Of a stretch of DNA of 64,000 bases, positions 32,928-47,539 are shown one piece after another (the first letter of the stretch is position 1; every line of letters begins with the position of its first letter). The DNA is taken from positions 261 to 64,260 of the forward strand of contig DGHK01000028.1 of NCBI GenBank assembly GCA_002392655.1. Direction: 5' to 3'. The notes under the pieces were generated by a model. The model made no database searches. It was not told where the DNA came from and saw nothing but the letters and a program-made list of their open reading frames with translations. The translations under genes were made by a program, and so were the position numbers. Source of the stretch: Lachnospiraceae bacterium UBA3850 (GTDB lineage: Bacteria; Bacillota; Clostridia; Lachnospirales; Lachnospiraceae).

Positions 32928-34085
32928 ATGGTAAAGCTAGTTAAGTTAATGATCGGCCTTACGGCCGCCTTTCTGCTGTTCATGGTAGTGTCCAATCACA
33001 TAAATGATTACAAGGCAGCATACAATGAAGAACTGACAAGTACACATACAGAGCCAGGCGAAGAAGTTGTCGTAGAGATACCAAAGAATGCTTCGGTCAA
33101 GGAGATTGCGAAGATACTTCACAAGCAAGGGCTGATAAAGTTTGAGGGAGCCTTTGTAGAGAGACTTCAGAACTCTAAATATCGAGGCAGACTTCAGAGT
33201 GGTACTTATAAACTGCATAAGGGTATGAATACTCTGGAAATGATGGATGCTATGTCCAAGGAGGATGAGGAGCATAAGGTTCAGAAACAGCTCGTTATCC
33301 CTGAGGGCTTTACAATCGATCAGATTGCAGCAAGGTGCGATGAAGAGGGGATATGCACAAAAAAAGAGTTCATCAATGCTGTTAAGTCAGTAACAGCAAA
33401 TGATTTCGAATACTTAGCAGATGTTCCTTCGGGAGTGGATGTAAGATACAAACTGGAGGGATATCTTTTTCCTGCGACTTATGATATCACAAAAGAAACA
33501 ACCGCAACTGATCTCGTAAGGATGATGTTGAATGCTTTCAAGTCCTATTACACTGATGAGATGAAATCAAAAGCTCTTGAAAGAGGCATGACTTCTTATG
33601 AGGTTATTACTGTTGCTTCAATGATTGAAAGAGAAGCGAAAATAGATGAGGAGAGACCGAAGATTGCTTCTGTTATATATAACAGAATGAACAAGGATAT
33701 GCTGCTTCAGATTGACCCTACCGTTTTGTATCCGCTTACAGACGGTATGTATAATCAGGAGAAGATGTCTACTGAAGATCTGGCACTCAAATCACCATAC
33801 AATACATATATGTACAAGGGTTATCCTGTAGGACCTATATCGAACCCCGGAGTTGCCTGCATAAAGGCTGCTCTTTATCCGGAAGAAACAACTTATCTGT
33901 ACTATAGGATAGTAGATGAGGAAAAGGGCGAGCATGCATTTTCCGAAACCTATGAGGAACATGAAAATCAGTATATCGGAGGTACGGATACAAACGGTGA
34001 CGGTATACAGGATATAGATGCAAATGACAAAACGTTCGAGAAGAATAATGTCGAAGATGATATCTGGAGTAATGATACGGATTGA
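32928..34085 (+). CDS. mltG: Endolytic murein transglycosylase MltG (YceG-like)
   Basis: This 385-residue membrane protein has an N-terminal helix (4-22), a LysM-like segment (about 50-105, VVEIPKNASVKEIAKIL), then the YceG catalytic domain (about 115-360). The catalytic Glu lies in VASMIEREAK. Other conserved segments are LEGYLFPATYDI, IASVIYNRM and LQIDPTVLYP. MltG cuts nascent glycan strands at the membrane and limits their length. A C-terminal acidic tail of about 35 residues (DTNGDGIQDID onwards) is extra. It ends 52 bp before the first FHA gene, so it may be part of the same envelope-signalling neighbourhood. Confidence 0.93.
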   Translation: MVKLVKLMIGLTAAFLLFMVVSNHINDYKAAYNEELTSTHTEPGEEVVVEIPKNASVKEIAKILHKQGLIKFEGAFVERLQNSKYRGRLQSGTYKLHKGMNTLEMMDAMSKEDEEHKVQKQLVIPEGFTIDQIAARCDEEGICTKKEFINAVKSVTANDFEYLADVPSGVDVRYKLEGYLFPATYDITKETTATDLVRMMLNAFKSYYTDEMKSKALERGMTSYEVITVASMIEREAKIDEERPKIASVIYNRMNKDMLLQIDPTVLYPLTDGMYNQEKMSTEDLALKSPYNTYMYKGYPVGPISNPGVACIKAALYPEETTYLYYRIVDEEKGEHAFSETYEEHENQYIGGTDTNGDGIQDIDANDKTFEKNNVEDDIWSNDTD

Positions 34086-34137: not shown

Positions 34138-35766
34138 ATGAGAAGATTTATTTTTACAGCAAAGAATATCGGACGCGAGCGTTATCTTACCTATGTTATG
34201 GGTGAGGGAATGGAAGTCGATGAAGATGTTCTTGATTATTGTGAAGATAATGATATACCGGAGATACTGAATATCATATATGAGGAAGATGATGATTATG
34301 ATTATCTGACTTATGATGTGACAGGACGTACATCCCTGGAGACATTTACTCAGGATGTAATGACTAGAGAGAAGGTCTTTACGATACTGAGGAACATATC
34401 GCTCAGTATGATAAGTGTAAAGGAACATGCTATTCCTCTTTCATACATACTGCTTAACAAAGGGTTTATGTATATAGATCCGGATACACTTGATGTAAAG
34501 TTCCTTTATCTCCCAGTAGAAGGAGATGCTTCTGTATCCACGGAATTTAAGAGCTTTGTCAGACAGCTGATGGCTGGAATGAAGTATGACGTTGAGGAAG
34601 ATCTGTCATATGTTGGACAGCTTCTTACATATGTAAACGGTGATTCATTCAACTTAAGGGGTCTTATCGGACTTACTGAAGCCATGATGCAGGATGCAGG
34701 AATGGCATACTCAGAGGAAGCTGGAATAGCTACCGAGGATGGGGCTGAGGTCGTTGACAGCGCATCGCCTGATATTGAAGAAGAGAAAGACAAGGGAGCT
34801 ATGGACTTCATGAAGGATCTCGATAGCGCAGATGACAAGATGCCTGAGATCGGCGATGATGATGAAGATGATATAGAACTTGAGGAAGCTGAGAAAGCAG
34901 CTGATTATGCAACAGAGGTTCTGACAGAGGAAATGGAAGAGGAAGCTTCTGAGGAAGCTGAAGCAGAGCCTGAAGCAGAGCCTGAAGCAGAGAACGTTGA
35001 AGAGACTGTTGAGGAAACAGCTGAGGAAGAGCCTGCTGAAGAGGCTGAAGCAGAAGAGGTTGAGGAGACCGCAGAAGAAGAGGTTGAACCGGTTGATGCT
35101 ACCAGAAGCGTAGAAAGAGAAGTTGAACATACTGAGACACTCGAGGATATCAAGGCCAGACTTCAGGAGCTTGCGGGTGCGGTAGACGGAAAGAATCCAC
35201 CACCAAAACAGCAGAAGAAGACTCCATCAGGTAAACCTGTCAGGGTAAGTAGAGCAGCTATGCTGAAGGCAGCTGAAGAAGCTATCGAAGAGGAAGATGC
35301 AGCTGCAGCTGAAGCAGAAGGAGTAGCTGAGGCGGAAGAGAAGCCTGAGAAGGATAATAAGAAGAATAACAAGAAAGAAGCTGACAAGAAGGAAGCTGAC
35401 AAGAAGGAGCCTGAAAAGAAGGCAGAGGTTATTGATAACACGATTCTCGGTGCAACCGGAGCAATTAAGATTAATCCTTATCTCATAAGAGTGAATACAA
35501 AAGAGAGGATAATGATCAACAAACCGGTATTCAAGATCGGTAAGGCAACACGAGGCGTTGATTATAGAGTAAGCGGAAACGGAGCTATCAGCCGTCAGCA
35601 TGCTGTTATAATTCACAAGGGCGATTCTTACTACATAAAAGATAATAAATCGACTAATCATACCTATGTAAATGATGTTGAAATCGCTGACGATGAGGAA
35701 GTATTACTCAAGGATAATGCTTCAATCAGACTCGGAGATGAAGACTTTACATTTAGGCTCGGATAA
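34138..35766 (+). CDS. FHA-domain protein with DUF6382-like N-terminus and acidic linker
   Basis: In this 542-residue protein, residues 1-190 form a globular domain paralogous to that of the next gene (DUF6382-like: VFTILRNISLSM, KEHAIPLSYILLNKGFMYID, MKYDVEEDLSYVGQLL). Residues 210-340 are a Glu/Ala-rich acidic linker and 395-430 are Lys-rich. Residues 455-542 are a forkhead-associated domain (FKIGKATRGVDY, SRQHAVI, NKSTNHTYVND), which binds phospho-threonine peptides. The phosphate-binding Arg of the FHA GR motif is Lys here; Ser-Arg-x-His is intact. Cytoplasmic. Aggagga lies upstream. It heads a same-strand cluster with a second FHA protein, PP2C phosphatase and Ser/Thr kinase, which are the expected writers and erasers of its ligand. 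Confidence 0.85.
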   Translation: MRRFIFTAKNIGRERYLTYVMGEGMEVDEDVLDYCEDNDIPEILNIIYEEDDDYDYLTYDVTGRTSLETFTQDVMTREKVFTILRNISLSMISVKEHAIPLSYILLNKGFMYIDPDTLDVKFLYLPVEGDASVSTEFKSFVRQLMAGMKYDVEEDLSYVGQLLTYVNGDSFNLRGLIGLTEAMMQDAGMAYSEEAGIATEDGAEVVDSASPDIEEEKDKGAMDFMKDLDSADDKMPEIGDDDEDDIELEEAEKAADYATEVLTEEMEEEASEEAEAEPEAEPEAENVEETVEETAEEEPAEEAEAEEVEETAEEEVEPVDATRSVEREVEHTETLEDIKARLQELAGAVDGKNPPPKQQKKTPSGKPVRVSRAAMLKAAEEAIEEEDAAAAEAEGVAEAEEKPEKDNKKNNKKEADKKEADKKEPEKKAEVIDNTILGATGAIKINPYLIRVNTKERIMINKPVFKIGKATRGVDYRVSGNGAISRQHAVIIHKGDSYYIKDNKSTNHTYVNDVEIADDEEVLLKDNASIRLGDEDFTFRLG

Positions 35767-35847
35767 GTTATTAAATGGATGGTTCAGTGCATAAAAATGT
35801 ACTGGACTATCTGTGGTTATTGAAATTATAAAAAAATGGGGGCAAAT

Positions 35848-38319
35848 ATGGAAAAAAAGAACATAAGCTTTGAGACCAGAGGCAACAGCATAACGATGAG
35901 ATATGAGCTTTCACCATCAGATGAACTTGACTCTACAGCACTCGATAGGCTAGATGAGAATATAGTTGAAATGACGGCTCCGATCAAATATAGCGAGGAT
36001 GGAGATAAGAGGGTTATTTACTCGCTTATTCCGTCAGCAGTTCAGCTTTCATCATTCCTGAAACAGACGCTTTCAAAGGGTGCGGTACTTACAATACTCA
36101 AGAACCTTATTACAGGTATGGATATTGGTAAGCATAGTATACCTGTAAGCTATATCGTGAAGGATATCAATTATATCTACATAGATGATAAGACACTGGA
36201 GACATATGCTTATGTTATTCCGATAAAGAATCAGTCGATGGACATTTCCGAGATACCTGAGTTTTTCAGAAGTGTTCTTTCGCATATGAAGTATCGTGAT
36301 GAGGATAAGGATAATTATGTCGCAAAGCTCATCACAAATGTAAACTCAGATAGATTCAGTCTTGCTGATTTTAATGTTATGGTAAATGAGTTAATGCTGG
36401 ATGTTGCTGATATGCCACAGGTAGCAATGGGTCAGGCCGGAATCAAGGTTGATAAGGCAGGGGTCCTCAGAAACAGAGCAACTTCAGTTCCGCGTCCTCC
36501 AATGGGGCAGCCGATGCCAGGTCAAATGCCACCAATGGGGCAGCCAATGCCAGGCCAGATGCCACCAATGGGGCAGCCAATGCCAGGCCAGATGCCGCCT
36601 ATGGGGCAGCCTATGCAGGGACAGGTTCCACCTATGGGGCAGCCTATGCAGCCTGCACAGCCAAAGTTCGATCCAAAGACAGGAAAGCCTTTGGGACAAG
36701 CGCCTCAGGCTCCGGTTCCGCCTATGGGACAGCCTATGCAGCCTGCACAGCCAAAGTTTGATCCAAAGACAGGAAAACCTTTAGGACAGGCAGTGCAACA
36801 GCCACAGGCACCGCAGCAACCACAGGCGCCGCAGCAACCACAGGTTAAGTTTGATCCTATGACAGGAAAGCCGATAGGACAGCCTGTACCACCAGTACAA
36901 CCACAGGCACCGCAGCAACCACAGGCGCCGCAGCAGCCACAGGTTAAGTTTGATCCTATGACAGGAAAGCCGATAGGACAGGCACCGGTACAGCCACAGA
37001 CTCCGAAAGCACCTGAGGCACCAAAGGCTCCAGAGATGCCAAAGGCACCAGAGATGCCAAAAGCACCGGAAATGCCGAAGGCACCAGAGATGCCGAAGGC
37101 ACCAGAAGCACCGAAGGCACCAGAGATGCCAAAAGCACCAGAGATGCCAAAAGCACCAGAGATGCCAAAGGCACCAGAGATGCCAAAGGCGCCAGAGATG
37201 CCAAAGGCACCAGAGATGCCAAAAGCACCAGAGATGCCAAAGGCACCAGAGATGCCGAAGGCACCAGAGATGCCAAAGGCACCAGAGATGCCAAAAGCAC
37301 CAGAGATGCCAAAAGCACCAGAAATGCCAAAAGTACCAGAAATGCCACAGCAACCACAGGCACCGGTACCACCGGTACAGCCACAGGCACCGGTACAGCC
37401 ACAGGTTAAGTTTGATCCTATGACAGGAAAACCGATAGATCAGGCACCAGAGATGCCAAAGGCACCACAGATGCCAAAAGCACCAGAGATGCCAAAGGCA
37501 CCACAGATGCCACAGCAACCACAGGCACCGGTACCACCGGTACAGCCACAGGCACCGCAGCAGCCACAGGTTAAGTTTGATCCTATGACAGGAAAGCCTT
37601 TGGGACAGGCACCGGTACAGCCGCAGGCACCGAAAGCACCAGAGATGCCAAAAGCACCGGAGGCACCAAAAGCACCGGAAATGCCAAAGGTACCACAGAT
37701 GCCGAAAGCACCAGAAATGCCACAGCAACCACAGGCACCGGTACCACCGGTACAGCCACAGGCACCGCAACAGCCACAGGTTAAGTTTGATCCTATGACA
37801 GGAAAGCCTTTGGGACAGGCACCGGTACAGCCGCAGGCGCCACAGGCACCGGTACCACCGGTACAGCCACAGGCACCACAGACTCCGGTACCACCGGTAC
37901 AGCCACAGGCTCCGAAGGCTCCTGAAGCTCCGAAGAGTGAAGAACAGGGTGATATGGTTTCACTTGATACGATCATGCAGGAGGCTGAGGACAGTGCAGC
38001 AGTTGCAGCGAAGCCTCGTCCACACTTCGTTCGTAAGAAGACTGGAGAGAAGATATATATTACGAAGGATGAATTCAAGATAGGAAAATCAAGAGTTCAT
38101 GCCGACTATGCGATAGATAGCAATTCCGCTATAAGCAGAGTTCACGTTATAGTTATCCGCAGGAATGGTGTAAGCTACCTCAAGGATAATGATTCAACTA
38201 ACGGAACATTTGTTGATGGCGAGAAACTTGAACCGGGAAGAGAAGTTCTGCTTAAAGCAAACATGGAAGTGAAGTTTGGAGACGAAGATTTCACATTCCT
38301 CTTGATGGACAACGTATAA
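35848..38319 (+). CDS. FHA-domain protein with DUF6382-like N-terminus and long Pro-rich repeat linker
   Basis: In this 823-residue protein, residues 1-195 match the N-terminal domain of the preceding gene product (VLTILKNLITGMDIGKHSIPVSYIVKDINYIYID). Residues 205-700 are low complexity: four MGQPM-x-GQ-x-PP units, six KFDP[KM]TGKP[IL]-[GD]Q modules, and 19 consecutive K-[AV]-P-E-[MA]-P hexapeptides. Residues 735-823 are an FHA domain (FKIGKSRVHADY, SRVHVIV, NDSTNGTFVDG) with intact phospho-threonine residues. Start 35848 uses the ggggg site inside the alternative start at 35836. The linker could act as a long flexible spacer or SH3-like docking rod. It is cytoplasmic, as no membrane helix is seen. 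Confidence 0.87.
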   Translation: MEKKNISFETRGNSITMRYELSPSDELDSTALDRLDENIVEMTAPIKYSEDGDKRVIYSLIPSAVQLSSFLKQTLSKGAVLTILKNLITGMDIGKHSIPVSYIVKDINYIYIDDKTLETYAYVIPIKNQSMDISEIPEFFRSVLSHMKYRDEDKDNYVAKLITNVNSDRFSLADFNVMVNELMLDVADMPQVAMGQAGIKVDKAGVLRNRATSVPRPPMGQPMPGQMPPMGQPMPGQMPPMGQPMPGQMPPMGQPMQGQVPPMGQPMQPAQPKFDPKTGKPLGQAPQAPVPPMGQPMQPAQPKFDPKTGKPLGQAVQQPQAPQQPQAPQQPQVKFDPMTGKPIGQPVPPVQPQAPQQPQAPQQPQVKFDPMTGKPIGQAPVQPQTPKAPEAPKAPEMPKAPEMPKAPEMPKAPEMPKAPEAPKAPEMPKAPEMPKAPEMPKAPEMPKAPEMPKAPEMPKAPEMPKAPEMPKAPEMPKAPEMPKAPEMPKAPEMPKVPEMPQQPQAPVPPVQPQAPVQPQVKFDPMTGKPIDQAPEMPKAPQMPKAPEMPKAPQMPQQPQAPVPPVQPQAPQQPQVKFDPMTGKPLGQAPVQPQAPKAPEMPKAPEAPKAPEMPKVPQMPKAPEMPQQPQAPVPPVQPQAPQQPQVKFDPMTGKPLGQAPVQPQAPQAPVPPVQPQAPQTPVPPVQPQAPKAPEAPKSEEQGDMVSLDTIMQEAEDSAAVAAKPRPHFVRKKTGEKIYITKDEFKIGKSRVHADYAIDSNSAISRVHVIVIRRNGVSYLKDNDSTNGTFVDGEKLEPGREVLLKANMEVKFGDEDFTFLLMDNV
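37006..37347 (+). repeat. 19 tandem copies of an 18-bp coding repeat
   Basis: The 342 bp consist of 19 units of type aaagcaccagagatgcca, encoding K-[AV]-P-E-[MA]-P, with third-position changes and two Glu-Ala variants (units 1 and 6). Slippage would change length in frame. Confidence 0.92.
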
Positions 38320-38386: not shown

Positions 38387-39157
38387 ATGGAATATTCTGC
38401 AACATATAATACCGATATAGGCATTAGAAAAAGTACAAATCAGGATTCAACAGCTATACGTATTATAGACACGCCTGATGGACAGGTTGCTTTTGCAATA
38501 GTATGTGACGGAATGGGAGGTCTTGCAAAGGGTGAGCTTGCTTCAAAGGAAGTAATCACAGCATTCTGCCGCTGGTTTGACGAAGAATTTGTAACTCAGG
38601 TACTGGACGGCTCTTTCTCTACACTACGACTCAGAGATGACTGGAACAGTATCATACAGGCAGAGAACAGACTTCTCAGCATATACGGTTCTGACAACAA
38701 TATAATGCTAGGTACTACAGTGTCAGCCATATTGATGTATAGAAATGATTTCTATATCGTTCATGTAGGAGACAGCCGAGTATATGAGATTCATGATTCA
38801 GTAAGAATTCTCACAAAGGATCAGACGTTTGTTGCAAGAGAGATTGCAGCAGGAAGAATGACTCCAGAGGAGGCAAAGATCGATCCTAGAAGAAGTGTAC
38901 TGCTTCAGTGTGTTGGTGCATCTGCAAAAGTTACACCGGACTTTCTGAAGGGCAAGATTCAGAAGAATGCAGTGTACTTTGTTTGTTCAGACGGATTCAG
39001 ACATCAGATATCTGAAGAAGAGATGATGGAGAAACTTGGACCGAATAATGCAGTAAATATGGAAGAGCTGAAGTATGGTTGTGTATATCTGACCGAGCTC
39101 GTTAAGAACCGCAAGGAAACTGATAATATAACAGTTGCCGCAATTAAGACTAAATAA
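38387..39157 (+). CDS. PP2C-type Ser/Thr protein phosphatase
   Basis: The 256-residue single-domain PP2C phosphatase has the metal-binding Asp residues in VCDGMGGLAKG near residue 45, NQDS near 18, GTTVSAIL, HVGDSRVYEI, LTKDQTF and VCSDGFRHQI. It removes phosphate from Ser/Thr in the cytosol. It lies directly between the FHA genes and the kinase gene, whose start is 13 bp after its stop, the classic PrpC-PrkC arrangement. Length is close to typical PrpC (about 250). Confidence 0.94.
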   Translation: MEYSATYNTDIGIRKSTNQDSTAIRIIDTPDGQVAFAIVCDGMGGLAKGELASKEVITAFCRWFDEEFVTQVLDGSFSTLRLRDDWNSIIQAENRLLSIYGSDNNIMLGTTVSAILMYRNDFYIVHVGDSRVYEIHDSVRILTKDQTFVAREIAAGRMTPEEAKIDPRRSVLLQCVGASAKVTPDFLKGKIQKNAVYFVCSDGFRHQISEEEMMEKLGPNNAVNMEELKYGCVYLTELVKNRKETDNITVAAIKTK

Positions 39158-39170
39158 TGGAGTTGAAAAT

Positions 39171-41330
39171 ATGTTAAAAGAGGGTACCGTCTTAGACGAA
39201 AAATATGAGATCCTTAGACAGATAGGTGAAGGTGGTATGTCAATTGTTTATTTGGCTCGTAATAACCGAATGAACATGCAGCTGGCTGTCAAGGAAATCA
39301 AAAATGATGGTTCAAAAAGTACAGAGATTCTCCTTAAGGGACTTGAGAGAGAAGCGAATATCCTGAAGGATGTGGACCATCCGGTTATTCCCAGAATTAT
39401 TGATATAGTCAAGCATGCAGGAACTATCTGCGTTGTTATGGATTTCATAGAAGGTGAGAACCTGGCGGATAAGCTGAAGGAGGTTGAGAGATTCTCACAG
39501 GAGCAGGTTATCGAATGGGGACTTGAGCTTGCATCAGCTCTGGAGTATCTGCATTCTATGGATCCTCCGATTATATACCGTGATATGAAGCCATCAAATG
39601 TTATGCTTAAACCGGACGGTGGTGTTAAGCTGATAGACTTTGGTACTGCGAAGACTTATGATATCGAGAATAACGCTGATACTACAGCGCTTGGAACCAG
39701 AGGATATGCTGCACCGGAGCAGTTTGGTGATGCACAGGGACGTGGTATCTATAAAACAGATGCTCGTACTGATATCTATAACCTGGGTGCAACGCTCTAT
39801 CATATGGTGACGGGTAAGAACCCTCAGGAGCCTCCTTATGAGATGGTTCCGATCAGAGAAGTGGATCCTATGCTTTCTACAGGACTTGAGCAGATCATAC
39901 TCAAGTGTACAAAGCCGAATCCAAACGAGAGATACCAGTCCTGCTCTGAGCTTATATATGCGCTGGAGCATTATACAGAGCTTGATGACAGTTATATAAA
40001 AGCTAATAAGAAGAAAGTTACCATATTTGCGGTAACTGTAGCACTTACTCTTATATCTGCAGTTATTGCACTGTTTGGAAAATTTGGAATAGACAAGGTT
40101 GCATCAGACAACTATATAGCTTACATAGAAAAAGGAAATGGCTTCAAGACGGATGGTCTGTATTCAGCAGCGGCGACGGAGTATAAGAAAGCTTTTGAAC
40201 TTGATGGTACGGATGCCGATGCGTATGTAAAATATATAGACACATTTATAGATTCATCCAAGGCAACGAATGAGAAGGGTGAATCAGAGCTGAAGCTTGA
40301 GGATGGACTGAATACAGTTGCAAACCGTGTAAAGAATAAATATGGAGATGTTGATAAGAATAATGAGGTTCTTTACAAGCTTGGTCTCACATATTTCACT
40401 GAAATCAATGATTACGGTGCAGCTGCAAAGTACTTTAAGATGGTTGATAAAGAAGATGAGTACTATGGAGAACTTGCAGATTACTATGGAAGTATCGCAC
40501 TTATCCTTTCAAGTACTAACGTTAACGTCAACGAACTTATTGATAAAGTAAACGGTTTTGCTTCATATAATATCAGCAGCTTTACAAATGACAATGAACA
40601 GAAGTTCCAGAACTATAAGACAGTGGGCAAGATATATGTTTCATATCTGAACACAAATGGAGTTCCGGAGCAGGCTGAGTCAGTAATGAGTCAGGCAGTA
40701 AAGGATCTGGCTGATTATACAGGTGAGAATCTGGCGGATTACTACTATGAATATAACAGTGATCTGGCTGAGATATACTATACACTTGCTGAGAAGGCCG
40801 GAGATGAGTCGAATTACAGACTTGCACTTAATTACTACGAAGAAGTGTTGAGTCAGATAGAAGGTAAAATATCTGTAAACGAAGATACAGATAATGAATC
40901 AATAAAGGGTCTGATACAGGCATATGTTAATAATGAATGCAGAGTAGCAGACATATATGCAAAACTCGGAGACAGTGATGCTGCGCTCAAAGTATATGAA
41001 GATACTGAGGCGGCAATGGGCGAGGGAAATACTTATGCTGTAAAGGTTTATTCAGAGCATTTGAATTACCTCTATACAATCTATGAGCAGAAGCAGAAGG
41101 ATCCCGGAAAATGGACTCCAAAGCAGGTTGAGACAATACTTGCAGTATACCAGAAGGGTAATAAGATAGAAGGTATAAGTGCAAATCCTAACTGGATCAA
41201 GAGATCTTCTGTTATGGATGGACTCGACGATGGTTCACTCACTGAGAAGGAGGAGACCACGGAGAAGCCATCTGATGAATCCTCTGAAGGAACTACTGAA
41301 GAGAATAAAACTGATGGAGAGGAGGACTAA
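39171..41330 (+). CDS. Transmembrane Ser/Thr protein kinase (PknB/PrkC-like catalytic domain)
   Basis: In this 719-residue kinase, the domain spans 12-275: Gly loop IGEGGMSIVYLA, ATP-binding Lys in LAVKEI, catalytic loop IYRDMKPSNVML, metal-binding LIDFGTAK, and GYAAPEQF. One membrane helix (about 283-305) leads to an outside region of about 410 residues with TPR-like helices (YSAAATEYKKAFELDG; YRLALNYYEEVLSQIE) and an acidic Thr/Glu tail. No PASTA domains are present, unlike classical PrkC, so the outer ligand differs. Start 39171 has tggagttg upstream. The next gene follows 3 bp after its stop. Confidence 0.93.
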   Translation: MLKEGTVLDEKYEILRQIGEGGMSIVYLARNNRMNMQLAVKEIKNDGSKSTEILLKGLEREANILKDVDHPVIPRIIDIVKHAGTICVVMDFIEGENLADKLKEVERFSQEQVIEWGLELASALEYLHSMDPPIIYRDMKPSNVMLKPDGGVKLIDFGTAKTYDIENNADTTALGTRGYAAPEQFGDAQGRGIYKTDARTDIYNLGATLYHMVTGKNPQEPPYEMVPIREVDPMLSTGLEQIILKCTKPNPNERYQSCSELIYALEHYTELDDSYIKANKKKVTIFAVTVALTLISAVIALFGKFGIDKVASDNYIAYIEKGNGFKTDGLYSAAATEYKKAFELDGTDADAYVKYIDTFIDSSKATNEKGESELKLEDGLNTVANRVKNKYGDVDKNNEVLYKLGLTYFTEINDYGAAAKYFKMVDKEDEYYGELADYYGSIALILSSTNVNVNELIDKVNGFASYNISSFTNDNEQKFQNYKTVGKIYVSYLNTNGVPEQAESVMSQAVKDLADYTGENLADYYYEYNSDLAEIYYTLAEKAGDESNYRLALNYYEEVLSQIEGKISVNEDTDNESIKGLIQAYVNNECRVADIYAKLGDSDAALKVYEDTEAAMGEGNTYAVKVYSEHLNYLYTIYEQKQKDPGKWTPKQVETILAVYQKGNKIEGISANPNWIKRSSVMDGLDDGSLTEKEETTEKPSDESSEGTTEENKTDGEED

Positions 41331-41333
41331 GCT

Positions 41334-42227
41334 ATGGGAATTTATAACATAATGTTCTGGGGCGGACTCATATTAGCCGGTATCTTCCTCATAGTGTCAG
41401 TCATCATCTTCATAAAGATGAGAATTCCGGAAGCATTCGGTGTAGTTACCGGAAGAACTCAGAAGAAGGCTATTGAAGAGATACGTTCCGGCGGAAGAGC
41501 CGTAACAACTTCTAAAAGAAAGAAGATCGGAAGCAACATACTTGCAAGAGATATCAAGGTTTCCGATTCTAAAAGAAAGGCTACGGTTACAGAGCACAAT
41601 ATGGCTCCTACCAGACCGGAAACCGGGGAAAGTGCTGAAAGCATTGCCAGAAGAGCTGCAGAAGATGCTAAGAAGCAGGTTCAGAGCAGCCAGGAGAAAG
41701 CGAGAAGAAATCTCGAAGAAGAATCTACAGAGGTTCTTACCTATAATGAGATGAAGACGAAGGGTGACTCGAGTGAAGAGCCTACAACCGTTCTTGAGAT
41801 GGAACAGGCAACGGACATATTGTCACAGGGCGATGGAGTATACGGAGACTCAGAGGCGGATTCATATGCTGATGATGCCACTGATGTTCTTGTCGGAAAT
41901 GGCAGAGTTGATGACAGAGAGCTTGAAGATAAGGATCTGTATAAAGACGATGAACTGGGTGATGAGAAGACAGATGTCCTGAGATCGACTTCGACAAGTG
42001 TGAATGATAGAGATGATGATGTTGATAAAACTGACGTTCTTACAGCAGAGATGGATGATCTCTCAGATAAGGATGTTTACGGAACATATAATCCGGAGAC
42101 TACATCTGTACTTAGGTCAGATATGGCACCGGGCAGCGACTCTGTTAAGAAGAGTGACGGCTTAAGTCGAGATGGAATCAAGGTACTTTACAGTGAAACT
42201 GTTGTTCACACTGATGAAAGCTTATAG
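41334..42227 (+). CDS. Membrane-anchored protein with repeated T-x-[VI]-L motifs; candidate kinase substrate and FHA ligand
   Basis: The 297 residues comprise one N-terminal membrane helix (8-28) followed by a basic segment and a long acidic, probably disordered cytoplasmic region. It contains seven T-x-[VI]-L motifs: TEVL 132, TTVL 151, TDIL 160, TDVL 183, TDVL 213, TDVL 233 and TSVL 257. The last sits in NPETTSVLRSDM, strikingly similar to the ETTSVFRAD phosphosite of mycobacterial GarA (recalled from memory), which is phosphorylated by PknB/PknG and bound by an FHA domain. FHA domains often read the +3 residue, which is Leu in all seven. The gene starts 3 bp after the kinase stop. No family is recognised; the substrate role is inferred. 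Confidence 0.72.
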   Translation: MGIYNIMFWGGLILAGIFLIVSVIIFIKMRIPEAFGVVTGRTQKKAIEEIRSGGRAVTTSKRKKIGSNILARDIKVSDSKRKATVTEHNMAPTRPETGESAESIARRAAEDAKKQVQSSQEKARRNLEEESTEVLTYNEMKTKGDSSEEPTTVLEMEQATDILSQGDGVYGDSEADSYADDATDVLVGNGRVDDRELEDKDLYKDDELGDEKTDVLRSTSTSVNDRDDDVDKTDVLTAEMDDLSDKDVYGTYNPETTSVLRSDMAPGSDSVKKSDGLSRDGIKVLYSETVVHTDESL

Positions 42228-42241
42228 GAGGGAGAGAATAT

Positions 42242-45200
42242 ATGATAAATAAAGTGAAAGGAAAAGGGCATATACATAGATCGCTCAAGGTAAGGCTCAT
42301 TGCATTTGTCACAGCGCTTGCTATGGTGCTTTCGGTTATTTATCTGAATGATCGAAGGGGAAGAGTTGAAGCTGACACGCCGACTGTCACAGTATATGAT
42401 GATTCATTTGTTTCATCTTTGATCAATTCATCTTCTGCTGACAGCGTAAATGTAATAGTTCCTGCTCAGGGAATAACATTTTCTGTCGGAGCTGATGGAA
42501 ATGCTCAGATCTCTGAAAGTATTAAGCTATACACAGAGGATGAAGTAGATTATTATATCGATGGGTCAAGCCTGACAAATCCGACAGAAGTAGATGCAAA
42601 CGCATATTACAAAATGATTGTGCGTTCAAGTGCAGATGGTTCGGGTACTAACCCTGGAACTATGACCTCAGGTGATACTGTATATATACTTAAAGAATAT
42701 GTAAATTATACGGATCCTGAAGGAGTTCATGATGATTATGTACCGGTTGATGCGGATACATATAAGCATGCACTTTATAAAACAATATCTGTTGCCACGC
42801 GCGATGCGGCAGGTCTGACATTTAATTCCAGTTCAAATCCTGCAACTGTAACAGATACAGATTTTACTGATACGGACGATACAAAGTACTATGGTAGTGT
42901 GACATATGCTGTTACTAAGGATGGTGGAGATGAAACATATTATACTTCACTTGACGGTTTAAATTCAGCCTTCACTAAAGGTGTGGATTCAGATGGATCT
43001 TATGAGATAAATAAGGTTATAAATGCACCGGCTTCAGGTTCAGGAACGGAACTGTTTACTGAAGATGTGAGTGGAGTTGTAAATAATTATATACTTAAGT
43101 CATATTCTGCAGGCTATACAGAGACTGGCGCTTCAGCTGAAACAATAATAGAAGGATCAGGCGGGGTGATTTCAGTACCTGAATCGGCCTCTGCAACAAT
43201 AAGTGCAACTAAAGATATAAATGTATATTTTGAGACAGATAAGGAAATAACACCGTCCAGTGATGTGACTATCACAGCTACAGGAGCAGGAACTATAGCT
43301 CCGACTGTTTCAGGAAGCGGAACGAGTTACAGCTTTACTATACCGGGAAGTGCTGCTAGAAGCGGAAATTCTCAGTCATATGCTGTAAAAGTTAATGACG
43401 GAACACTTAGTGAGAGCTTTACAGTAAATATTAATAATGCAGATGGAACTGCAACAATCTCAGCAGAGAAAATAAATGGTGAACCTGTAGATAGTTCATT
43501 TGTATATGTAACAGATGAGGAAGCTGAGCTGAGTGCGGTTGTAACAGTAGAAGATGAAGCTGCAGTTGTTAATAAATCAGGTTTCTGCAAGCTGACAAGC
43601 AGCACAATACCTGCAACTCGTACTATAACGGATTCGGCAGCACCGGATTCTGATGGCAAAATAACTGCTAGTGTTACCCTTGCACCTGGAGAAAACTACT
43701 ACTGTGTAGGTGGTAACACATCATACGATGGTGGAACAACTACTATAGATTTCCCTAAGGGATCAGTATATCAGCTGTTTTATGATAATGTTGATCCATA
43801 TGTAGTAGAGAATTCGGTTGCAGTGGAATCAGATGGAACAGCAGTAACGGTTAATCATGAAGCCGGTACAAAAAACTATGATGCTACCGTATCTGCAATG
43901 GCTACCACAGACATTACACTTAATGTAAGTGATATGCAGAAGGATGGAAGCGGAACAGATATAGACGGTAGTGGAATCAATACAGTTACTATAAATGGTA
44001 CTGCCAAAACACCGGATTCATCCGGACAGGTAGCCTATAGTATAGATCCGGATTCCGGAAAAGCTTCAGGATCTTCAGACGAACTTACAGTATATCTGAG
44101 GGATAATGCCGGAAGAGAAGATGAATATAAAGTAACAATAAACTATATAGATGAAAGAGCCAGCATAACAGAAGGCTTCAGTCACGGAACTGTAGATGGA
44201 AGTTACTTCTTCAAGTGGGATAGCTCTTCAAGACAGGCAACTGTTACTTATACAGTTGATACAAATGTAGAACTGAAGAGTCAGGCTGACGATGGAGTTG
44301 TAATAACAGTCGATGGTGCTAAGGCACCGGCAAGTCAGTTTGATATAGAACCGGTTACACCAACAGGCTCATATGCTTATGAATATAAGGTAACATTTAG
44401 ATATGATCCTACTGTATCAAAGGCTGATTACAACATAGTTTTGACGGTAACAAACAAGAATGATTATCCGACTACTCATAATACAGCAGTTAGAAGTGTG
44501 GATATTGATAATCCGACTATTGATGTAGAGGGTGATAATACCAAGTGGTATCAGAACCTTGTTTTAAATGTTAAGGTCAGTGATGGAACTGTTTCATCCG
44601 GTTTTGATCATGTTGATGCAACGGGCGTTAACCCAACTAAGTTTACATCTACTCCTTATGTTGTAACTGTAAATGAGTCAACCTCCACAGCAGGAACAGC
44701 GGTATCCTTTAAGGCATTTGATAAGGCCGGAAATGAGAGTACAACTTATTACAATACATATTATGTAGATAAGAAAAAGCCTGTTCTTACACTTAAGGTA
44801 AATAAAAAGAATTACAAGGAGGTTGATGGAAAGGTACTTCCTGTAGCAGATCCTGTAATAGACTATACACTTACAGATTCACTTAGTGGTATCGATGGTT
44901 CAGATGCAAGTGCATCATACTTTAAGATCAATGGCACAAGCTATCCTGGTTCAACGGGAAAGAAGCTTTCTGAGATAATCGGTAAGGTTGATCCTAAGAT
45001 CAGTTACCATATCGAGCTTTATGCAAGAGATAGAGCAGGAAATGAAGAGAAGTATGAGACTACATTTAAGGCCGATGGTGAAAAGCCTGATATCACAGGT
45101 AAGATAGAGAATACACCTAAGAAGGATAAGTATCCTACATACTTCAATGAAAGTGTAACATTAACGGTTACTGTAACAGATGCAAATATCAGCAAGAGCG

Positions 45201-47539
45201 GTCTCAAGGTTACTGAAACCGGCGGACGTACAATCAAGTATGACTGGAAGCAGGATGGAAGCGGTAAGTGGATAGCAACCATCAAGGCTAATAATGAGGG
45301 TAATTATAACGTCAAGGTTACTGCAACTGATGACGGTGGCCTCTCAAATTCATGGTCTCAGACATTTACCATTGATAAGACAGCTCCGGATGTTACAACT
45401 CTTCTGAATGGAAGTGAGTATACATCAAGTAATAGTTATAACAACACTATAACTCACGGGGTTAATGTGGTTGATGATAACGAAGATGAGGCTGATGTAG
45501 CAGTTCAGATTGAAAGAGAAGTTCCGGGTGGCGGAACAGAAAGTCTGAAAAAGAAGGGTAAGGGTCCTTTCACTATCAGTGAGGATGGATTCTACACAGT
45601 AACATATACTGTTATTGATAAGGCAGGAAACTCAACAACCAAGGAAATTGGATTTACAGTAGATAATACTGCACCTGCAAACAACCTGTATGTAACAACA
45701 GCAAATCCTGCAAAGGTTGATGCATATCCAAACAACTATGTAAATGTTTTGTATGTATTTACAGAGCATGAAAGTCAGGAGAACTATCGTTATGGACAGT
45801 ATTACAATTCAGATGTAACAATAGAGCTTAACTACTTTGATTACAACCTGAATTCAGTTTATGTAACAGATGGTGAAACAGAACTCAGTCCTACATGGAC
45901 AGAAAATAATGGCTACGGAAAAGCAACCGTGACTATCTCTTCTGAGGGATATCATGATATCAAGATCTGGACAGACGATCTGGCAGGAAATACAACCGAT
46001 GATACAGACATTGGAAAGAGAATCAGATTTACTATAGACAAGACAGCTCCTGTTATATCAACAACACTTAATGGTGCGGGATATGCAGAAGGGTCAGGTG
46101 TCAGATATCTGACAACCAACGGAACTGTTGGTGTTACAGTATCTGATAAGAATATAGATACCAGTGATCTGAAGAGAATCTACAAGATAACTCCTCCGGG
46201 AGGAGCAACAAAAACTTCTGAATCTTATGTAAGTGAAGGAAGTGAAACATATGCTGAAGAAGCTGATTACGAGGTTCAGTATGTGGCAGTTGATAAGGCT
46301 GGAAACACAAGTACTATGAGAACAGTACAGTTCAGAGTAGATAAGACTGCACCACAGTTGAGTATATCCAATGTAGGCGCTTCTACAACAGCAGGTGCAG
46401 TAAATGTTTCCTTCAACGTTAAGGAAGCATTCTACTGGGATATGAACGCCGTAACTATCAAGATCTATAAGAAGAAGGATGGAAGCGGAGAAGTTCTTGA
46501 AAAAACAATTGATATGAAGCCGAAGTCAGCAAATGATGTTACAAGTTATACATTTACTGATGATGCTGAATACAGGATTGAGTTTACAGCAGAGGATAAG
46601 TGCGGTAACAAGGCAAATACAGATTATACATTCATCAAGGACGGAACTGCTCCTAGGATCGTACTTTCAGGTGTTGGAAATTATGATATGACAGATAAGA
46701 ATGTCGAGCTCATGATTACTGTAGATGAAGACTTCTACACATCCAACAAGGTTTCACTTAAGGGTACAAGAACAGATATAGAAGGCAAGAAGAACCCTAT
46801 AACATTTAACGACTTCAATCCAAACAGAACCAAGATATCTGAGATGAAGCAGCTCTTCGATAAGGATGGAATCTACGATATAGAGGTTACCTCTACAGAT
46901 AAAGCTGGTAACTCTTCAAGCAAGAAGGTTCACTTCACTATCGATACTGAAGCTCCGAAGATCGGTGATCTGTCAAAGTATGACGGAGTTAAGCTGAGAG
47001 AGTTCAAGTGGGATGTGGATCTCGATAAGCTGGTAACAGATCTTACAGTTTGCGATATAGGACTGTATCTCGACGGAGTTGAGTATGATGGAGTTTCACC
47101 AATAGAGGATGGATCGCACGTGCTCAAGGTTGTTGCTGTTGATGAGATGGGACATAAGTCTGAAAAGGAAGTTACATTTATCCTTGACTCAAAGGGACCT
47201 AACATCATAGTTTCAAATGTAGAGGATCAGGATCTGTTCTACGAGGCAAGAGAAATAGGTGTTTCTGTACAGCTTGATGAGGATGTGCTTGATAGTGTAA
47301 CACTTAACGGCAAAACTATAGCAGTTAATGATAATCAGGCTACAATGAATATAGACAAGAAGGGTGACTACACACTTGAAGCTATGGCTCATGATGAGGC
47401 AGGAAATGAGGCATCTGTTAAGCTTACATTTACTTATGGAAGCGAGACAAGTATTTGGTGGATTCTTGCAATAGCCGGTGGAGCTATACTGCTTCTCCTT
47501 ATACTTCTTCTCATAATCAAGAAGAAGAAAAGCTGGTAA
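42242..47539 (+). CDS. Giant Ig-like surface protein with C-terminal membrane anchor
   Basis: This 1765-residue protein has a signal/anchor region (1-45, basic start then LIAFVTALAMVLSVIYL). A long extracellular region follows, with at least nine Ig-like modules of about 90-110 residues, each ending near a D-[KNGT]-x-x-P hinge (DKTAPDV, DNTAPAN, DKTAPVI, DKTAPQL, DGTAPRI, DTEAPKI and others). A hydrophobic C-terminal helix (about 1737-1759) ends in IIKKKKSW. There is no LPXTG sorting signal, so it stays in the membrane. Such Big_3/HYR-like rods typically display or sense at the surface. It starts 14 bp after the T-x-V-L protein with taggaggg upstream, placing it in the kinase operon. Confidence 0.83.
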   Translation: MINKVKGKGHIHRSLKVRLIAFVTALAMVLSVIYLNDRRGRVEADTPTVTVYDDSFVSSLINSSSADSVNVIVPAQGITFSVGADGNAQISESIKLYTEDEVDYYIDGSSLTNPTEVDANAYYKMIVRSSADGSGTNPGTMTSGDTVYILKEYVNYTDPEGVHDDYVPVDADTYKHALYKTISVATRDAAGLTFNSSSNPATVTDTDFTDTDDTKYYGSVTYAVTKDGGDETYYTSLDGLNSAFTKGVDSDGSYEINKVINAPASGSGTELFTEDVSGVVNNYILKSYSAGYTETGASAETIIEGSGGVISVPESASATISATKDINVYFETDKEITPSSDVTITATGAGTIAPTVSGSGTSYSFTIPGSAARSGNSQSYAVKVNDGTLSESFTVNINNADGTATISAEKINGEPVDSSFVYVTDEEAELSAVVTVEDEAAVVNKSGFCKLTSSTIPATRTITDSAAPDSDGKITASVTLAPGENYYCVGGNTSYDGGTTTIDFPKGSVYQLFYDNVDPYVVENSVAVESDGTAVTVNHEAGTKNYDATVSAMATTDITLNVSDMQKDGSGTDIDGSGINTVTINGTAKTPDSSGQVAYSIDPDSGKASGSSDELTVYLRDNAGREDEYKVTINYIDERASITEGFSHGTVDGSYFFKWDSSSRQATVTYTVDTNVELKSQADDGVVITVDGAKAPASQFDIEPVTPTGSYAYEYKVTFRYDPTVSKADYNIVLTVTNKNDYPTTHNTAVRSVDIDNPTIDVEGDNTKWYQNLVLNVKVSDGTVSSGFDHVDATGVNPTKFTSTPYVVTVNESTSTAGTAVSFKAFDKAGNESTTYYNTYYVDKKKPVLTLKVNKKNYKEVDGKVLPVADPVIDYTLTDSLSGIDGSDASASYFKINGTSYPGSTGKKLSEIIGKVDPKISYHIELYARDRAGNEEKYETTFKADGEKPDITGKIENTPKKDKYPTYFNESVTLTVTVTDANISKSGLKVTETGGRTIKYDWKQDGSGKWIATIKANNEGNYNVKVTATDDGGLSNSWSQTFTIDKTAPDVTTLLNGSEYTSSNSYNNTITHGVNVVDDNEDEADVAVQIEREVPGGGTESLKKKGKGPFTISEDGFYTVTYTVIDKAGNSTTKEIGFTVDNTAPANNLYVTTANPAKVDAYPNNYVNVLYVFTEHESQENYRYGQYYNSDVTIELNYFDYNLNSVYVTDGETELSPTWTENNGYGKATVTISSEGYHDIKIWTDDLAGNTTDDTDIGKRIRFTIDKTAPVISTTLNGAGYAEGSGVRYLTTNGTVGVTVSDKNIDTSDLKRIYKITPPGGATKTSESYVSEGSETYAEEADYEVQYVAVDKAGNTSTMRTVQFRVDKTAPQLSISNVGASTTAGAVNVSFNVKEAFYWDMNAVTIKIYKKKDGSGEVLEKTIDMKPKSANDVTSYTFTDDAEYRIEFTAEDKCGNKANTDYTFIKDGTAPRIVLSGVGNYDMTDKNVELMITVDEDFYTSNKVSLKGTRTDIEGKKNPITFNDFNPNRTKISEMKQLFDKDGIYDIEVTSTDKAGNSSSKKVHFTIDTEAPKIGDLSKYDGVKLREFKWDVDLDKLVTDLTVCDIGLYLDGVEYDGVSPIEDGSHVLKVVAVDEMGHKSEKEVTFILDSKGPNIIVSNVEDQDLFYEAREIGVSVQLDEDVLDSVTLNGKTIAVNDNQATMNIDKKGDYTLEAMAHDEAGNEASVKLTFTYGSETSIWWILAIAGGAILLLLILLLIIKKKKSW

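Follow-up and report, generated by a model that had tools for sequence, protein, structure and literature searches.

Between a Ser/Thr kinase gene and the gene of a giant Ig-like protein, Lachnospiraceae bacterium UBA3850, an organism of the rumen, carries a short open reading frame. Its product has one membrane helix and an acidic tail with seven T-x-[VI]-L motifs. What would these motifs serve for, and which proteins would read them? We analysed the locus in its window, a stretch of 64,000 nucleotides (contig DGHK01000028.1 of assembly GCA_002392655.1), and in related genomes.

The locus and its genes

The gene order is mltG, FHA1, FHA2, PP2C, kinase, tail and Ig-like giant. The features of the locus are as follows.

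32928-34085, + strand: MltG/YceG (Pfam), found upstream in each of the 23 loci of this module form that extend so far
34138-35766, + strand: FHA1, with a DUF6382 domain of kinase-like fold, an acidic linker and a C-terminal FHA domain (Pfam, model)
35836-38319, + strand: FHA2, with a DUF6382 domain (below the Pfam cut-off), a long Pro-rich repeat linker and a C-terminal FHA domain
38387-39157, + strand: PP2C-type phosphatase (Pfam)
39171-41330, + strand: Ser/Thr kinase, start at ATG 39171 or TTG 39135
41334-42227, + strand: tail protein, with a single transmembrane (TM) helix, a juxtamembrane TGRTxxKAIExIR segment, a disordered (predicted) acidic motif tail and a conserved C-terminus
41337-41417, + strand: TM helix, residues 2-28 (AlphaFold; charge pattern read from the sequence)
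41424-41486, + strand: conserved juxtamembrane helices, residues 31-51, IPEAFGVVTGRTQKKAIEEIR (AlphaFold and alignments)
41727-41738, + strand: motif 1, T132 (TEVL), T and L in 44/44 relatives
41784-41795, + strand: motif 2, T151 (TTVL), T in 33/44 relatives
41811-41822, + strand: motif 3, T160 (TDIL), 44/44 relatives
41880-41891, + strand: motif 4, T183 (TDVL), 37/44 relatives
41970-41981, + strand: motif 5, T213 (TDVL), 40/44 relatives
42030-42041, + strand: motif 6, T233 (TDVL), 42/44 relatives
42102-42113, + strand: motif 7, T257 (TSVL, within ETTSVLRSD), 44/44 relatives
42177-42224, + strand: conserved C-terminal segment, residues 282-297, IKVLYSETVVHTDESL (alignments)
42242-47539, + strand: 1765-aa Ig-like protein, with an N-terminal signal-like stretch and a C-terminal TM helix, both read from the sequence

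The tail gene encodes 297 amino acids from an ATG start, with AGGAGG at 41320-41325, and begins 3 bp past the stop codon of the kinase. The initial annotation had placed it there, near a PP2C and two FHA proteins, and the Pfam domains and coordinates bear this out. Only TAA GCT ATG (41328-41336) stands between the two genes, which share one reading frame; this gap differs among relatives. A TM helix can be read from the sequence of the kinase, whose outer part gave TPR matches that stay below the Pfam cut-offs.

We counted gene linkage in 52 window-type loci (of 53; one was without a tail ORF), each time only where the DNA reaches far enough. The kinase lies directly upstream of the tail in 48/48 and the PP2C is present in 43/43. 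At least one FHA protein occurs in 23/23 (two in 22), MltG in 23/23, and the Ig-like gene follows downstream in 41/44. Eleven loci of other types keep the adjacent kinase (10/10), the PP2C (9/9) and the FHA protein (7/7), with MltG in 2/7 and the Ig-like gene in 2/9. The kinases have xRD, DFG and APE in 50/50. The ATP-binding Lys was recognised in 23/50 by a narrow pattern, and the window kinase has this Lys.

A tail of predicted disorder with seven motifs

The AlphaFold model, built from a 44-row alignment, shows the TM helix at residues 2-28, juxtamembrane helices up to residue 51 and a helix at 100-142. From residue 131 on, the mean pLDDT is 42-56 per ten residues, which fits a disordered tail. 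The C-terminus is probably inside, in the cytoplasm, because basic residues directly follow the TM helix. Residues 128-270 contain 44 acidic and 12 basic residues.

The motifs are centred on T132, T151, T160, T183, T213, T233 and T257 (41727-42113). In 20,000 shuffles of residues 55-297, the mean was 0.16 motifs and the maximum 3; seven were reached in none (0/20,000). Chance or composition as the source of the array is rejected by shuffles, in the window protein and also in both sets of relatives described below. Seven such motifs in a disordered, acidic tail had been claimed at the outset, and the count, the charges and the low pLDDT agree with that claim. At the DNA level, a degenerate pattern for the motif found 42 sites in the genome against 41 control sites, that is, no overall enrichment. 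Four of the 42 sites lie within 320 bp inside the tail gene.

The mycobacterial GarA phosphosite reads ETTSVFRAD and is recognised by PknB/PknG. The initial annotation took the last motif, ETTSVLRSD, as nearly this site. These letters are indeed present, but the likeness to GarA is not special, because the same site across 44 relatives reads [EDN]-[MELTQV]-T-[AS]-V-L. The ETTS portion of the GarA phosphosite is published (PMC12321487, in the part accessible). The tail protein itself is without an FHA domain (Pfam), unlike GarA and OdhI, where FHA domain and phosphosite share one protein.

No Pfam family matched the tail protein, and its NCBIfam matches lie only far below the cut-off; a hidden known family is therefore rejected. 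In its C-terminal segment, I282, T289, H292, T293 and E295 are kept in 44/44 relatives. Many tails from outside the genus end in a similar I-H-T-[DE]-E.

Constraint on the motif in close relatives

A protein search gave 142 relatives. The best 120 of the 142 were scanned together with the query, and all 121 sequences have at least four motifs outside the TM region. After removing one identical sequence and one fragment, thinning at 70% identity left 44 non-redundant relatives. They contain 293 T-x-[VI]-L motifs, compared with 6.5 expected. Each tail has 4-8, with a median of 7.

The acceptor position is nearly exclusive. With [DE]-x before and [VI]-L after, it is Thr in 222 cases, Ser in 0, and Asp, Glu and Asn in 1 each, in tails that hold 1,096 Ser and 1,045 Thr in total. 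A few rows of the alignment where the motif is lost or misaligned show other residues, for example Ser in 2/44 at column 183. At +3 in the acidic context, Leu occupies 222/222, with Ile, Val, Met, Phe, Ala, Trp and Tyr at 0, so the Leu that the initial annotation noticed at +3 of every motif extends to the 44 relatives. Position +2 in the same context is Val in 185, Ile in 37, Leu in 8 and others in 4. Glu or Asp occurs at -2 in 224/293 motifs and at -3 in 193/293, and +1 is mostly Asp.

T132, T160 and T257 are invariant together with their Leu, and the other four sites have Thr in 33-42 of the 44 relatives. The mean share of the majority residue is 0.86 in core motif columns versus 0.39 in the other tail columns. 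Conversely, the spacing of 8-94 residues is not conserved; the commonest value, 9, accounts for 24/249. A conserved count and spacing in a drifting tail had been proposed as a check. The count is kept and the remainder drifts, but the spacing is not kept.

The wider tail family

The tail protein was matched in 33/37 genomes of the same genus; completeness is 73-87% for the four genomes without a match. With a second profile it was found in 52/392 genomes and 25/172 genera sampled within the order. Across the phylum it was found in 5/398 sampled genomes, two of the five outside the order. The family is present in many Lachnospiraceae genera. A cultured strain, Eubacterium ruminantium ATCC 17233, also has the locus in its genome (L135).

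Outside the genus we collected 29 tail ORFs of 128-353 aa; nine further loci gave no tail ORF and stand outside this set. When aligned, they have in common the TM-juxtamembrane segment, around TGRTxxKAIExIR. ETTVL-type repeats occur in many of them, in some as near-perfect tandems (seven in L145, ten in L146). Four of the 29 are without T-x-[VIL]-L (L064, L065, L079, L151), and several have one. In the L064/L173 locus, the motif is missing from the FHA linker as well as from the tail. The L079 tail (1240-1779), read from its sequence, shows five ETVY[FL]G variants in place of T-x-[VIL]-L, with Phe or Leu still at +3.

A second protein search was scored among the 8,000 candidates sharing most words and gave 367 relatives, of which the best 120 were used. 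Compared with the first list, 115 of these were new, and thinning left 55 non-redundant proteins; some of them (270-313 aa) may belong to the window type. They hold 263 T-x-[VIL]-L motifs against 12.9 expected. S-x-[VIL]-L was found 3 times in tails with 657 Ser, and Ala in 2 cases.

FHA proteins and the motif in cis

A pattern for the FHA phosphate pocket left 5/109 domains unmatched overall and 1/77 unmatched in the genus. Among the 76 matched genus domains, S-R-x-H is present in 76 and S-T-N-[G/H/K]-T in 73. The canonical Gly-Arg of the pocket is replaced by Gly-Lys in 75/76, so phosphate binding may be weaker or differ. By their sequences, the phosphate pockets of the FHA proteins beside the tail gene are mostly intact.

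The N-terminal DUF6382 domain of FHA1 (34138-34710) gave a good model (pLDDT 88.7), which matched the protein-kinase fold. Foldseek listed the TraF N-domain first, with EssB/YukC and the mycobacterial Rv3910 within the first 14 matches. The 50 matches given by a second structure aligner are kinases, and EssB/YukC and Rv3910 are not among them. No HRD, DFG or VAIK-like string was found in the sequence of this domain. The DUF6382 domain of FHA2 has a YRD string and lacks DFG. From the model, FHA1 is a fusion of FHA with a kinase-fold domain, probably a pseudokinase. DUF6382-FHA fusions of this kind might take the place that the EssB-EssC(FHA) pair has in T7SSb. The Pro-rich linker of FHA2 (MPKAPE units) has NCBIfam matches to surface proteins, below the cut-off.

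The motif also occurs in the FHA proteins themselves. Outside the window lineage (17 loci), 16/18 FHA proteins have it in the 60-residue stretch that precedes the FHA domain, 12-34 residues away from that domain, a placement reminiscent of GarA and OdhI. Inside the lineage, 3/69 do. These counts leave out duplicates, short loci, FHA proteins whose domain is preceded by fewer than 60 residues, the genome's own C34 cluster and locus L148. A Fisher p value for this difference overstates the evidence and is only indicative, because the sequences are related. The FHA protein of L148 has nine readable tandem ETTVL units, and the tail of the same locus has one. With the cis motif in 16/18 FHA proteins of other lineages and the L148 array, the motif travels with FHA domains. 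Among the sequence evidence for reading by FHA domains, this is the strongest.

Two other FHA proteins (L160 10573-12540 and L175 10880-12712) resemble a trypsin-like domain followed by a TM helix, cis TxVL motifs and an FHA domain. The protease part is named by the look of the sequence.

Relation to the type VII secretion system T7SSe

The gene content recalls the regulatory half of T7SSe, described by Garrett et al. 2024 (PMC11217815). In its accessible text, this system includes the kinase TseD, the PPM phosphatase TseF, the DUF6382-FHA protein TseJ and the Ig-like TseI, while TseH and TseK are single-TM proteins with unstructured cytoplasmic parts. Single-TM proteins of this general kind are known already, as TseH/TseK. 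By description only, the window locus has the same set: a membrane kinase, a PPM phosphatase, DUF6382-FHA proteins, a single-TM tail and an Ig-like protein. The predicted architecture of the tail, one TM helix and an unstructured cytoplasmic stretch, would suit TseH or TseK, and the 1765-aa protein resembles TseI, again by description. However, the window locus differs in being linked to MltG, in its two FHA proteins, in its longer tail and in that no ATPase or WXG100 was found. Moreover, the accessible text of PMC11217815 names no motif array in TseH or TseK, whereas the window tail has seven motifs.

The assembly is 97.4% complete, with 5.4% contamination and 65 contigs. A TseC-type FtsK/SpoIIIE-FHA ATPase was not found in it (one PF01580 match, in a 900-aa frame), an absence that is not certain at this completeness and number of contigs. 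WXG100 (PF06013) gave 0 matches in this genome. In the genus, PF06013 matched in 4/12 genomes searched, one of them below the cut-off. The eight of these 12 genomes without WXG100, including our own and the single-contig G005, all carry the tail gene. The genus genomes G016, G023, G024 and G015 have additional weak matches to the FtsK family, in long frames (1239-1567 aa).

The genome G009 has a window-type locus on one contig, and another contig (C3) with WXG100 genes and a 1543-aa frame with two FtsK matches. A few kb from this frame, kinase, PP2C and FHA genes accompany a 186-aa tail that has three motifs. In G805, from outside the order, FHA, PP2C and kinase genes are followed by a tail that has eight T-x-[VIL]-L motifs and then by an Ig-like gene. 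Nearby lie a small ORF and an ORF of 1546 aa that gave an FHA match. By length, order and look, the large ORF is a putative T7SS ATPase and the small one may be WXG100-like.

When 70 kinases were placed in a tree, the 25 linked to MltG all grouped within one 50-row clade (support 100/100, branch 0.58). None of the 20 kinases outside the clade is MltG-linked. The other 25 inside it come from loci where MltG was not seen; MltG was always found where the DNA has room. The absence of WXG100 from the genome and from most genus genomes searched, the two loci of G009 and the clade of MltG-linked kinases together make the window module look like a T7SS-free sister form. It seems to function with no type VII secretion ATPase.

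A probable phospho-docking array at the membrane

The array, its constraint, the gene linkage, the pockets, the cis motif and the predicted disorder all come from comparing sequences. On this basis we consider it likely that the tail is a multivalent phospho-docking array, written by the kinase, read by FHA domains and tethered to the membrane, in a module free of T7SS. The initial annotation had read the protein as a multivalent, membrane-tethered phospho-docking platform. This reading is the best supported one: Thr as the only acceptor, Leu at +3 and Glu or Asp at -2 match FHA ligands, although the motif spacing is not conserved.

The adjacent membrane kinase would sense an envelope signal through its outer part and phosphorylate the motif threonines. 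Each pThr-x-[VI]-L would then dock one FHA domain of the neighbouring DUF6382-FHA proteins; the constraint on the motif, the conservation of the pocket and the cis placement of the motif in relatives suggest this step. In this way several copies of the FHA proteins could be brought together at the membrane, close to MltG and the Ig-like surface protein, and the PP2C might reset the array. In related loci outside the lineage, some of which are T7SS loci, the motif is present in the tail and, in most cases, also in cis ahead of the FHA domain. The window lineage has kept it almost exclusively in the tail, in trans.

FHA domains strictly require pThr, and pTxx[I/L/V] is one class of their ligands (PMC8786283, accessible part). 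The array fits this class by its Thr acceptor and the Leu at +3, in both sets of relatives. As far as the available text of PMC6733907 goes, the self-peptides bound by DgcB and by OdhI/GarA share Glu at -2 and hydrophobic residues at +2 and +3, and the tail peptide bound by the DgcB FHA domain has in addition a hydrophobic -3 and Ser at +1. The array agrees with the published FHA peptides at -2, 0, +2 and +3. It departs from them in its acidic -3, where OdhI as well as DgcB has a hydrophobic residue, and in its +1, which is mostly Asp.

The Thr-only, Leu +3 pattern could instead be the substrate preference of the kinase itself. The tail would then be a multisite substrate that acts by charge (unfolding, membrane repulsion or product-docking of the kinase), with the motif as kinase consensus and no FHA reader. 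The kinase adjoins the tail gene in all testable loci, and mycobacterial kinases reportedly prefer an acidic N-terminal flank and a hydrophobic +3. However, this leaves aside the motif directly before the FHA domains of 16/18 proteins from other loci and the nearly invariant pocket residues. Pure charge needs neither V/I at +2 nor Leu at +3 in each copy, nor the exclusion of Ser, and we think this explanation unlikely. A short linear motif that works without phosphate, such as a peptide that forms a strand and docks on the kinase or the DUF6382 domains, would explain the retention of the hydrophobic +2/+3 pair; even when not phosphorylated, a tail peptide can occupy an FHA cleft (PMC6733907, accessible part). 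However, Thr is kept and Ser, Val and Ala are excluded (with 3 Ser and 2 Ala in the second set). The linkage to kinase and phosphatase genes also speaks against it, and it appears highly improbable.

The tail might also be simply TseH or TseK, in a T7SSe whose ATPase is encoded elsewhere or is missing from an incomplete assembly. The gene content fits TseD, F, J, H/K and I by description (PMC11217815, in its accessible text). Members of the family lie near FtsK-type and WXG100 genes in G009 and near the FHA-bearing 1546-aa ORF in G805, and the weak FtsK-family matches of four genus genomes (G016, G023, G024, G015) would agree with this. On the other hand, the genome has a single FtsK match, in the 900-aa frame, and no WXG100; the tail gene is present in all eight of the 12 genus genomes that lack WXG100; the 25 MltG-linked kinases form part of one clade; and G009 carries both a window-type and a T7SS locus. 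We give this possibility very little credence.

Returning to the FHA-read array, a wider role can be imagined, one toward which we remain more sceptical than convinced. Single-TM arrays of FHA ligands could be a general bacterial phospho-scaffold that clusters kinase-fold-FHA proteins by multivalency, possibly condensing them. The array would move between the tail (trans) and the FHA protein (cis), switching between recruitment and self-locking, and would control T7SSe as well as an independent envelope programme. In this role it would be a bacterial counterpart of phospho-LAT-type scaffolds.

Comparison with known phosphothreonine systems

GarA and OdhI are phosphorylated at ETT-type threonines N-terminal to their FHA domain (PMC12321487, PMC2784874, accessible parts). 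The window array resembles these sites in Glu at -2 and hydrophobic +2 and +3. Nevertheless, GarA and OdhI have adjacent cis sites on a soluble FHA protein, whereas the seven sites of the window array are borne by a distinct membrane protein that has no FHA domain. In the mycobacterial MviN-FhaA system, the tail of a membrane protein phosphorylated by PknB recruits an FHA protein and a pseudokinase is involved; the available text describes no motif array (PMC12599244). There the pseudokinase belongs to the membrane protein, while at the window locus a putative one is fused to FHA. In Agrobacterium type VI secretion, the Fha protein reads pThr on the membrane protein TssL (PMC3953482). This pair is likened here by description, and unlike the window tail, no multisite tail is described for it in the accessible text.

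DgcB of Bdellovibrio (6HBZ, 6HC0, 6HC1) has an FHA domain that reads a disordered tail peptide with Glu at -2 and hydrophobic +2/+3 (PMC6733907, in part), and the FHA domain of FHA2 matches DgcB by sequence. DgcB differs by its single site in the same protein, which drives a GGDEF enzyme, and by its hydrophobic -3, where the window array is acidic.

In the literature searched, which leaves out subscription papers and supplements, the motif array was not found, and only PMC11217815 bears on the gene set. These bacteria have FHA domains and Ser/Thr kinases, but the same literature does not describe their ligands. The array supplies exact peptides for FHA binding tests. Control by threonine phosphorylation has been raised for T7SSe, with no ligand named in the accessible text (PMC11217815), and the tail family is a concrete candidate for that ligand. 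That one copy occurs where no T7SS was detected points to the phospho-module as a self-standing device shared by secretion systems. A membrane tail with seven interchangeable sites would be an unusually clear case of multivalent phospho-scaffolding in bacteria.

A second phospho-signalling cluster

The same genome has a second phospho-signalling cluster. Nine of its 15 FHA matches lie at C34:2453-15374, and a tenth further along (L039 1-16100). The cluster includes two kinases and two PP2C. By the look of their sequences, it also encodes a vWA-TM-FHA protein, an ABC transporter with FHA domains and an HtrA-like TM protein with FHA. One FHA protein of this cluster reads EDVTKVLPEP.
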